From positions 1 to 64,000 of the forward strand of contig JACCQI010000004.1 of the NCBI GenBank assembly GCA_015709315.1: a DNA stretch of 64,000 bases, written 5' to 3'. A program made the translations under genes and the position numbers. The notes beneath the pieces are model-generated. The model searched no databases. It saw only the letters and a program-made list of their open reading frames with translations, and was not told the DNA's origin. Origin of the DNA: Desulfovibrionaceae bacterium (GTDB lineage Bacteria > Desulfobacterota > Desulfovibrionia > Desulfovibrionales > Desulfovibrionaceae). Below are positions 109 to 41,653 of this stretch, one piece after another (the stretch's first letter is position 1; each line of letters starts with the position of its first letter).

Positions 109-453
109 CTAGCAGCCGCAGCCGCCGGAGCCGGCGGAACCACAGGAGCCGGAGGAGGAGCAGCTGCAACTGCTGCCTTCGCCGGCAACCGGGTTCGAGG
201 ATTCCACCACGAAGCCGTAGTATGTCATATCGATTTTGACGTCGCCGGTCTGGGTTTCCAGATCCTTGTCGATCAGAAAGGTGAAGCCGGCGGTCTCGTA
301 AACAGTGTCTTTGTCGTTAGGCTCGTCCAGAGCCAGGGTCAGGCGCGGGCCTGCTCAACCGCCCGCCGCGAGGTACACGCGGATGGGGGACGGCTTTTTG
401 TCCTGAAAGTAGCCTTCCAGTTGCTTCTGGGCGGCTTCGGTGATTTCGAACAT
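109..453 (-). CDS. HesB/IscA-like selenoprotein with in-frame UGA (Sec33)
   Basis: Encodes 114 residues of the HesB/IscA (A-type iron-sulfur carrier) fold if the in-frame TGA at 355-357 is read as selenocysteine. The segment YLAAGG-Sec-AGPRLTLALDE matches the conserved first-cysteine region of the family, with Sec in place of that Cys. Reading continues without interruption through FTFLIDKDL and FVVESSNP to a Cys/Ser/Gly-rich tail ending CGC and a TAG stop. Start ATG 451-453 has a strong AGGAGG six bases upstream. HesB-like selenoproteins are known in sulfate-reducing deltaproteobacteria. A standard gene caller would miss or split this gene. Its exact role is unknown; Fe-S, Se or metal handling is inferred. 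Consistent with it, yedE/yedF-type selenium genes lie at 16-19 kb. Confidence 0.85.
318..357 (-). promoter_or_regulatory. Candidate bacterial SECIS next to UGA33
   Basis: Downstream of the TGA on the minus strand, a perfect 5-bp stem GGCTC/GAGCC closes a 5-nt loop (320-334), beginning 20 nt after the TGA. That is within the distance expected for a bacterial SECIS apical hairpin. A second small inverted repeat, CAGGC/GCCTG, lies between it and the TGA. No folding calculation was made, and bacterial SECIS elements are poorly conserved in sequence, so this is only a candidate. Confidence 0.45.
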
Positions 454-620: not shown

Positions 621-1163
621 ATGAAGGAATGCGGCACCATATTGACCAGCAGGGAGATGAGCCGGACGCTGGAGCGGCTGGCCTTTGAAGTGTACGAGCG
701 CCATGGCGACGACGATTCCATCGCCATTCTCGGCATCCAGCGCCGCGGCGCGGACCTGGCCGAACGCCTCAAGAGGCTTTTGGACCAGCGGCTTGAACGC
801 AAGGTGCCGTTGGGCAAGCTGGACATCAATCTCTATCGCGACGACTGGACCACCAACCTGGAACTGACGCCGGTGATCAACTGTTCGGAGATCGGCTTCG
901 ACGTGGAGGGCCGTTCCATCGTGCTGGTGGACGACGTGCTCTACTCGGGCCGGACCGTCCGCGCCGCCCTGGAGGCGATCCTGGACTACGGCCGCCCGAA
1001 GCGGGTGGAGCTTTTGGTGCTCGTGGACCGGGGCCACCGCGAACTGCCCATCCAGGCCGACTACGTGGGCAAGAAGATCGACACGCTGGGCGACGAGCAC
1101 GTCAACGTGCTGGTTTCCGAGCGCGACGACGAGGACAAGGTCTGCCTCGTCACGAGCAGCTAG
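621..1163 (+). CDS. pyrR: Bifunctional pyr operon regulator / uracil phosphoribosyltransferase PyrR
   Basis: A 180-residue type I phosphoribosyltransferase of normal PyrR length. The PRPP-binding motif VLVDDVLYSGRT is at residues 101-112, and LGIQRRGADLAERL near residue 37 and LVDRGHRELP near residue 134 are typical PyrR segments. The family salvages uracil to UMP and in many bacteria also binds pyr mRNA to attenuate it. No pyr biosynthetic gene is nearby, so a regulatory role here cannot be read from context. A GAGG lies eight bases before the ATG. The stop is one base before the next gene's start, suggesting co-transcription with the kinase-family gene that follows. Confidence 0.9.
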   Translation: MKECGTILTSREMSRTLERLAFEVYERHGDDDSIAILGIQRRGADLAERLKRLLDQRLERKVPLGKLDINLYRDDWTTNLELTPVINCSEIGFDVEGRSIVLVDDVLYSGRTVRAALEAILDYGRPKRVELLVLVDRGHRELPIQADYVGKKIDTLGDEHVNVLVSERDDEDKVCLVTSS

Positions 1164-5425: not shown

Positions 5426-5493
5426 TCATCGCTTCGCTCTGGTGCCGACGCAGTAGGCACTACCACTATCTCAACTCTTCCCATAGCCGCATC

Positions 5494-5526
5494 AAGCGAT
5501 TCGGGGGCCACCGGCACCCGACAGCG
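5494..5526 (+). repeat. Short hairpin repeat, family D, copy D1
   Basis: Flanks AGCGATTCGG and CCGACAGCG surround a small hairpin GGGGGCC-acc-GGCACCC with one mismatch. Further copies lie at 5564-5596, 26769-26798 (inverted), 41540-41572 and 41620-41653. Confidence 0.65.
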
Positions 5527-5563
5527 AAGCCCCCAACCAAATCCTCCCCCAATTAGCCGCCAT

Positions 5564-5596
5564 AAGCGCCTTGGCTGCCACCGGCAGCCAACAGCG
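5564..5596 (+). repeat. Short hairpin repeat, family D, copy D2
   Basis: The arms are TTGGCTGCC/GGCAGCCAA, perfectly complementary but different from the CGGGTGCC/GGCACCCG arms of other copies. The flanks AAGCG and CAGCG are retained. Confidence 0.6.
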
Positions 5597-5654
5597 GAGC
5601 GCCCCGCCAAGCTCTCCCGAGCAAGGCACCTCCCCCTCTTCCTGACGCAGTGAG

Positions 5655-18931: not shown

Positions 18932-19156
18932 TCCCCATTTCCTCCTTGCTAACCGTCACTTCACGTATCGATTCCGATTCCGTATGAATCATCAGACAAT
19001 TAGCAGAAACGGCGAGTCTGGAACCAATCGTTTATTATACTGTCGCCCGTCCGTTCCATAGATAATATCAATGTGTTTAATCGGGCATATAAATAAACTC
19101 GAGGAAAAAGGGAGGATATTCCAGCGCAGCGATCACGGACAAACTCCCGTCACCCG

Positions 19157-19370
19157 CACTTGCCTTTACCAGACAACACTCTCGCGGCACTCCCACCATT
19201 TCCACTCGAAGAGCGGTAATTGATGCCGGGCCTTGGAGCCTGTCGCAGGCGACGAAGCCCAGCCCGATTGCGCCTGTTCCCGGCAGGCTTTCCATCGGGC
19301 GGGCGAAAGTCGCCGTAAAGGCGAAAAAGGGAGTGACGATGACAGGCGATGTCGAACGCGGAGCGCAGCC
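19157..19370 (+). repeat. Dispersed repeat, family E, copy E1 (internally deleted)
   Basis: Closely matches 26845-27148: CGCACTTGCCTTT, GCGGCACTCCCA, GAAGAGCGGT, TTGATGCCGGGCCTT, GCCTGTCGCAGGCGACGAAG, GCAGGCTTTCCATCGGGCG. E1 then jumps to the shared right end (GATGACAGG, AACGCGGAGCGC), so it lacks the roughly 100-bp middle of E2. Noncoding. Confidence 0.75.
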
Positions 19371-26844: not shown

Positions 26845-27148
26845 CGCACTTGCCTTTCCCGGTCCGCCTTAGCGCGGCACTCCCAACACTTCCACCCGAA
26901 GAGCGGTCATTGATGCCGGGCCTTAGAGCCTGTCGCAGGCGACGAAGCGCCGCCCGATTGCGCCTGCGTCAGCAGGCTTTCCATCGGGCGAGCGAAAGTC
27001 GCCTACAGGCTCTTGGGCCCGGCATCAGGCGGCAGCAACGCCAGCGCCCTTTTTCCCCTATTTTTGGGGCGCCAGCCAAAAACAGGGCCGCCGTAAGGGC
27101 GGAAAACAATGTATCAATGACAGGGGTAGTATAACGCGGAGCGCGGCC
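26845..27148 (+). repeat. Dispersed repeat, family E, copy E2 (fullest)
   Basis: About 300 bp. The left part matches E1 (19157 on); the right part is the inverse of E3. It includes nested inverted repeats, such as GATGCCGGGCC-TTAGAGCCTGT with ACAGGCTC-TTGGGCCCGGCATC, so much of it can fold into one large hairpin. No protein-coding character. Confidence 0.75.
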
Positions 27149-41380: not shown

Positions 41381-41539
41381 ATATTCACCTTCCATTTTTA
41401 TTAGAGGGTGAAGCATACGCCATGCCAAAAAAATATGTTCAGTGATTTCAGCGAATAGGTGTTTTTCAGCCAGTCGTTTCGATGTGCAGAGTGCATCTCT
41501 CTGCACAACCCGCGCACGGTTTTTTGCACCGCCATCAAA

Positions 41540-41572
41540 AGCGAATCGGGTGCCACCGGCACCCGACAGCGG
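41540..41572 (+). repeat. Short hairpin repeat, family D, copy D3
   Basis: AAGCGAATCGGGTGCC-acc-GGCACCCGACAGCG: perfect 8-bp arms CGGGTGCC/GGCACCCG between the family flanks. Confidence 0.7.
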
Positions 41573-41619
41573 CAAGCCCGCACCAAGCCCTCGTCCAATC
41601 TCCCCCAAACGCCGCCAAG

Positions 41620-41653
41620 AGCGATTCGGGTGCGGCACGCACCCGACAGCGGG
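41620..41653 (+). repeat. Short hairpin repeat, family D, copy D4
   Basis: GAGCGATTCGGGTGC-ggcac-GCACCCGACAGCG, 7-bp arms and standard flanks. Confidence 0.7.

Follow-up and report, generated by a model that had tools for sequence, protein, structure and literature searches.

A gene for a HesB/IscA protein, in which an in-frame TGA at codon 33 very probably specifies selenocysteine (Sec), has been found on the minus strand of the window, that is, the whole 64,000-nt stretch of DNA analysed here (C42:1-64000). Sequence comparison indicates that this UGA is decoded by SelB and tRNA-Sec, guided by a downstream hairpin. A Sec-containing HesB protein in a sulfate reducer is not new; what appears to be new here is its pairing with a cysteine-containing (Cys) twin together with the finding of no other A-type carrier.

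Probable selenocysteine at codon 33 and its hairpin

The sequence-only reading had placed a TGA at codon 33 inside an otherwise intact HesB/IscA frame, and this has been confirmed, with the strand now made explicit. The features of the locus are as follows.

453..109, minus strand: Sec-containing HesB/IscA gene (Sec-hesB), 114 codons plus TAG; NF038090 115.6 bits, cut-off 85
453-451, minus strand: start codon ATG
357-355, minus strand: in-frame TGA, codon 33, read as Sec; same place in 36/36 genomes of the genus
111-109, minus strand: stop codon TAG
465-460, minus strand: Shine-Dalgarno AGGAGG, 6 nt before the ATG, read from the sequence
334-320, minus strand: putative SECIS apical hairpin GGCUC-UGGAC-GAGCC, +23 to +37 from the U of UGA
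180-112, minus strand: Gly/Ser/Cys tail, codons 92-114, predicted disordered; Cys 96, 98, 104, 112 and 114
621..1163, plus strand: phosphoribosyltransferase gene (PF00156), divergent from Sec-hesB

With TGA translated as Sec, the product has 114 residues (MFEITEAAQ...AAGGU33AGPRLTLALDEP...); in the list of open reading frames made with table 11, the part before the TGA appears as a 47-aa frame from an upstream TTG. The ribosome site claimed earlier is the AGGAGG listed above, and the claimed homology on both sides of the TGA is seen in NF038090, which aligns residues 1-98 to positions 1-101 of its 101. No Rfam match at the gathering threshold and no tRNA by ARAGORN was found anywhere in the 64,000-nt window. 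Contig C42 has 108 bases past the stop of Sec-hesB, so the downstream neighbour of the gene in the host genome is cut off.

Repeated elements were also noticed in the window. Similar-looking gttgctgcg elements, recognised by eye, follow hesB and the gene at 1698-2300 (at 1-108 and about 2300-2460, respectively), and the contig ends within the first of them. A 43-nt element occurs as four copies in two pairs at 5485-5597 and 41530-41652, 77-81% identical to the reference copy, and two neighbouring stretches (87 and 97% identical) are repeated about 7690 bases apart at 19155-19314 and 26845-27003.

The host assembly comprises 3.28 Mb in 87 contigs and is listed as 100% complete. Over cut-off in it are selA (601 bits), tRNA-Sec (80.7), selB (383.6) and selD (328.2); the search for these four genes that had been proposed with the sequence-only reading has therefore not refuted Sec. 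The host selD (L186, G000:C16:29208-30137) has its own in-frame TGA, and its product is probably a selenoprotein itself.

Every genome of the genus, which is probably Pseudodesulfovibrio, carries one HesB copy with the TGA, and the U is at the identical position in all 36; the host is counted among them, and 4 are 81-87% complete. A scan of named genomes with the window protein gave at least five confirmed records, of which four are from Pseudodesulfovibrio, including P. pelocollis, and one is from a 'Deltaproteobacteria bacterium'. The relatives thus keep the TGA and a conserved frame, and not a normal stop with loss of conservation beyond it. Median dN/dS in the genus is 0.12 for the part before the TGA (483/630 pairs passing a dS filter of 0.1-1.5) and 0.17 for the part after it (596/630), values which indicate that the frame past the TGA is under purifying selection. 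The TGA could otherwise be a true stop, a sequencing error or part of a pseudogene, with the downstream homology as a relic. This would find some room in the fact that Sec insertion here is deduced from sequence comparison and in one genome described below (G120) that has a TGA-bearing hesB without detected selB, but the TGA with an intact frame in 36/36 genomes, the dN/dS past the TGA and the invariance of the SECIS codons in Sec copies make it very improbable, and it has been rejected.

The hairpin was studied across 110 genomes and 34 genera, whose fetched loci gave 194 distinct HesB sequences; this is a non-random sample, in which 36 genomes are the genus and the rest are the best matches listed and selB-negative genomes. 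The site residue is U in 82 and C in 103 of the sequences, and the other 9 (Glu, Ala, Ser, Leu) are excluded from the counts. Since 46 of the Sec copies are from 24 other genera, U is found at the same site in 82 copies from 25 genera in all. Sec at the first cluster-ligand position, as proposed earlier, is strongly supported. The inner five stem pairs of GGCUC-UGGAY-GAGCC form at +23 to +37 in every one of the Sec copies, with UGGAU or UGGAC as the loop; a sixth, outer pair forms in 44 of them, and pair 23-37 shows two double changes, A-U in G024 and U-A in G114. At least five of the six pairs form in 10 of the 103 Cys copies. The codons +8 GCT (Ala), +9 CTG (Leu) and +11 GAG (Glu) are each used in 82/82 Sec copies, versus 15/95, 55/94 and 39/75 of the Cys copies with the same residue (Fisher 2e-35, 2e-13 and 8e-15, respectively, values that overstate independence because sequence rows share descent). 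The codon contrast between the Sec and Cys paralogs, which are mostly from the same genomes, is large despite kinship. Third-position entropy at the hairpin codons is zero among Sec copies, versus 1.3-1.6 bits among Cys copies.

With at most one mismatch allowed, GGCTCTGGAYGAGCC matches the window at the hairpin and nowhere else (0.02 expected). Folding of 24 nt around it gave -8.1 kcal/mol (z -2.86, 3/200 shuffles as good), and folding of 48 nt from the UGA gave -15.8 (z -1.82); since 11/200 shuffles match the latter, folding energy by itself is modest evidence. The conservation across Sec copies is strong evidence for a SECIS element, and the possible SECIS of the sequence-only reading has in this way been borne out.

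Across 297 sampled genomes of the order, Sec copies and the Sec machinery co-occur, imperfectly. A match to NF038090 at E 0.001 was obtained in 284 genomes (262 over cut-off), and selB is over cut-off in 251. Among the 46 selB-negative genomes, 36 are without a TGA-bearing match (29 with other matches and 7 with none). The remaining 10 have such a match; selA is over cut-off in 7 of them, most in fragmented assemblies, and a selA match is absent in 3, namely G291 (81% complete), G095 (82%) and G237, which has a weak TGA-bearing match (24.5 bits). G120 (listed as 99% complete; loci L130 and L180) is hard to account for: its TGA-bearing hesB has the SECIS hairpin, and selA is present, yet no selB is over cut-off. 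In the other direction, G225 and G136 have selB and each a single NF038090 match without TGA, so the presence of selB does not imply a Sec hesB copy. At most one copy was counted in 33/46 selB-negative versus 53/251 selB-positive genomes, by a hand count that is confounded by kinship.

Family, fold and cysteine-rich tail

The window protein is a selenoprotein of the already known IscA_HesB_Se family, the full NF038090 model being matched at the score listed above. It also passes PF01521 Fe-S_biosyn (39.6 bits, gathering 26.3) and is far under the cut-offs of the IscA, SufA and ErpA models. Proteins of this kind were called known already in 2005 (PMC1242214), and HesB-like selenoproteins were described from D. 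vulgaris and D. desulfuricans in 2006, with two Sec-to-Cys conversions in the family (PMC1794560). DVU_1382 of Desulfovibrio vulgaris is given as a HesB family selenoprotein in a 2007 table (PMC1914089), and the statement of the sequence-only reading that such proteins exist in some deltaproteobacteria is correct in view of these D. vulgaris reports. DVU_1382 resembles the present gene in having a TGA-interrupted HesB frame in a sulfate reducer; compared by description, its sequence differs, and a tandem Cys twin is not mentioned for it in the accessible portions of the reports. In a 2016 survey, HesB ranked sixth among bacterial selenoprotein families by organism number, with 90 proteins in 86 organisms (PMC5029168), and elsewhere the HesB-like selenoprotein was annotated 'iron/sulfur cluster assembly?' (PMC2933860). 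According to a 2024 paper, mutagenesis and 75Se labelling revealed a HesB-like selenoprotein in M. maripaludis (PMC11097638), and selenoproteins have been treated in a further review (PMC9312934). The M. maripaludis protein shares with ours Sec in a HesB-like protein and U-x-G-P, but the model of its type, TIGR01911 HesB_rel_seleno, fails on the window protein (38.7 versus 66.35 bits), as it does in the whole genus (0/36 genomes over cut-off). Archaeal Sec decoding differs from the bacterial one.

An AlphaFold2 model, built on an alignment of 65 relatives and with Cys substituted for Sec, has a mean pLDDT of 77.1 and a pTM of 0.61, with residues 92-114 below 50, and puts residue 33 in a loop between strands 24-29 and 37-42. 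The best Foldseek matches are IscA 1x0g (with [2Fe-2S]), IscA 1r94 and SufA 2d2a, IscA 1s98 being found as well, and sequence profiles matched AQ_1857, HI1723, E. coli IscA (yfhF) and IscA 1x0g. An IscA/HesB fold is predicted, in which Sec is in the loop holding the first cluster-binding Cys of A-type carriers. The likeness to IscA, SufA and ErpA lies in the fold and the first-ligand position, whereas the window protein differs from them by Sec for Cys, a loosely spaced Cys-rich tail and no fixed CxC. DsrR of Allochromatium vinosum is not known to carry the ligand cysteines and serves sulfur metabolism in a way not known to involve Fe-S. It has an IscA-like fold and was found at Foldseek rank 10 (2k4z, E 8.5e-4).

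The site motif U-x-G-P, known as the motif of the HesB-like selenoprotein family (PMC13188914), is present in 82/82 Sec copies. The tail has a median of 4 Cys in Sec copies and 4 in Cys copies, with 3 to 5 in all 82 Sec copies, and the ligand candidates in the window protein are U33, C96 and C98. CxC stands at the first tail Cys in 16/82 Sec and 40/103 Cys copies, and anywhere in the tail in 48/82 and 61/103, respectively. The ligand motif of A-type carriers, C-Xn-C-X-C (PMC7144353), is thus not strictly kept in the subfamily. The tail had been described as extra; it is instead general to the subfamily, in Sec and Cys copies alike, with loose spacing.

The cysteine twin and its surroundings

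A copy with Cys at the site is also present in all 36 genomes of the genus (40 such copies, some degenerate). In 33 of these genomes the two form a head-to-tail tandem, in which a Cys copy follows the Sec copy on the same strand at a distance of 115 to 2412 bases. The Cys copies of G003 and G011 are on other contigs and not close to a contig end, which means that the twins are not tandem there; the host copy (G000:C4:1894-2115) is near a contig end and therefore may be adjacent to the Sec gene. Outside the genus, a Cys copy was found within the fetched stretches in 34 of 46 Sec-bearing genomes, and the order of twins varies between Sec-Cys and Cys-Sec. Sec/Cys isoform pairs in general are known from methanogens (PMC11097638); no description of tandem Sec/Cys hesB twins was met in the titles and opening parts of abstracts of the open-licence papers that literature searches on HesB selenoproteins and A-type carriers listed. 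Further tandem paralogs were noticed at some loci. In genus g7, a third HesB paralog without the ligand Cys (L153:6784-7116 in G144, and in other fetched g7 genomes) has Glu at the site in 4/7 and Ala in 3/7 and keeps the Cys-containing tail, and in G148 of genus g9 (L154) the tandem paralog adjoining the Sec gene carries Ser at that position and lacks the Cys-rich tail.

A tree of 136 rows and 92 columns, including 12 of the 36 genus genomes, leaves 55 of its 129 forks open. The Sec/Cys label changes 19 times on it, at least 6 changes being forced by starred branches. In several cases twins cluster by genus or by close genera (SH-aLRT 99 for g12, 95 for g33, 91 for g4, 99 for g5+g15+g31 and 94 for g2). 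The two kinds of copy are mostly in separate groups in g7, g10 and g19, which fits an older Sec/Cys split there. The simplest reading seems to be that the Cys copy was born repeatedly beside the Sec gene; gene conversion could mimic such repeated birth.

The search for A-type carriers in the genus found none besides the twins, as 37/37 PF01521 matches, obtained in 29/36 genomes, are at hesB loci. PF01521 missed both hesB copies, which are divergent, in the other 7 genomes and is therefore not fully sensitive, though it gave a match in 9/14 controls including E. coli. The NifU_N scaffold domain is present in 34/36 genomes. The genus seems to build Fe-S clusters with the Sec/Cys pair as its sole A-type-like proteins, or without A-type carriers.

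Neighbours were called with a GC3-filtered gene caller, which is crude, so the following counts are approximate. A relative of the divergent phosphoribosyltransferase was found in 41/76 loci from 16 genera, likely as synteny rather than function. A convergent AMP-ligase-like gene is present in 36/76 loci, and branched-chain amino acid transport genes are often beyond it (both named from sequence). An operon partner with a functional link common to the family was not found in the 76 loci. In 5 of the 33 congeners with a visible inter-twin stretch (G008, G009, G019, G032 and G033; loci L059, L060, L071, L084 and L085), the twins are separated by a catalase gene of the same strand; one member was tested (PF00199, 637 bits) and the others were assigned by clustering. 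A FUR-family gene is beside the catalase gene in G032, and G014 has a Metal_resist gene (PF13801) between its twins; Pfam was run on few neighbours, so these two are sightings and not counts over all genomes. The catalase, FUR and Metal_resist neighbours are hints of oxidative or metal stress.

Possible functions of the pair

Our leading guess, and a tentative one, is an A-type-like carrier with a selenium ligand, for which the Cys copy is a backup or partner. The selenolate of Sec33 and thiolates of the flexible tail, probably in a dimer, would hold an Fe-S cluster or iron briefly, and this would then be handed on; the Cys copy might do the same job when selenium is short, or be a partner subunit of the Sec copy. 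This carrier function is suggested by the PF01521 score over cut-off, the IscA/SufA fold matches, the restriction of PF01521 to hesB loci, NifU_N in 34/36 genomes and the Cys copy in 36/36. Against it stand the failure of the A-type model TIGR00049 (43.2 versus 58.8 bits), the loosely kept ligand motif and the lack of any recognised Fe-S assembly gene beside Sec-hesB among the few neighbours tested, although many A-type carrier genes are likewise without adjacent Fe-S assembly genes (PMC2682760). Normal nitrogen fixation in the mutant of the M. maripaludis HesB-like selenoprotein, given as an unpublished remark (PMC11097638), also points away from it. Since A-type carriers may be dispensable in these bacteria, being the sole one detected is no proof of carrier function.

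A role in redox or peroxide defence, in which Sec33 would form selenylsulfides with tail thiols and the Cys twin would be a slower, selenium-free form, appears unlikely. The catalase between twins and the FUR-family gene beside it are consistent with this role, and a 2026 review considers redox functions likely for the majority of uncharacterized selenoproteins (PMC13188914); however, the catalase is found in only 5/33 congeners and could be a chance insertion, the site has U-x-G-P throughout and no UxxC, CxxU or TxxU, and the fold is that of IscA, not thioredoxin. The variable spacing of the tail Cys, with 3 to 5 of them in every Sec copy, would also suit a chelator of soft metals or metalloids (Hg, As, Cd, Cu) or a sulfur/selenium site for handling selenium, formed by Sec and the loose tail. 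Metal binding by Sec has been proposed in other selenoproteins (PMC13188914), and Metal_resist is between the twins in G014, but this single metal-resistance neighbour is weak, and presence of the gene in 36/36 genomes suggests housekeeping rather than sporadic resistance; we regard this function as rather unlikely. The suggestion of the sequence-only reading that the protein serves selenium or metal handling instead of plain Fe-S delivery receives mild support from the loose tail spacing and the catalase, FUR and metal-resistance neighbours.

Returning to the carrier function, a more extended form of it, which we consider doubtful, is that in these sulfate reducers the Sec copy and its Cys twin jointly take the place of every classical A-type carrier, as a mixed Se/S heteromer or a selenium-status switch, and that the paired state evolved repeatedly via duplication of the Sec gene and a UGA-to-Cys change. 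The presence of a Cys twin beside the Sec gene makes the function of Sec HesB easier to test. Because most of its species have the Sec and Cys forms next to each other, with no further A-type carrier detected, this genus is a clean place for asking what selenium adds to a carrier with this fold.
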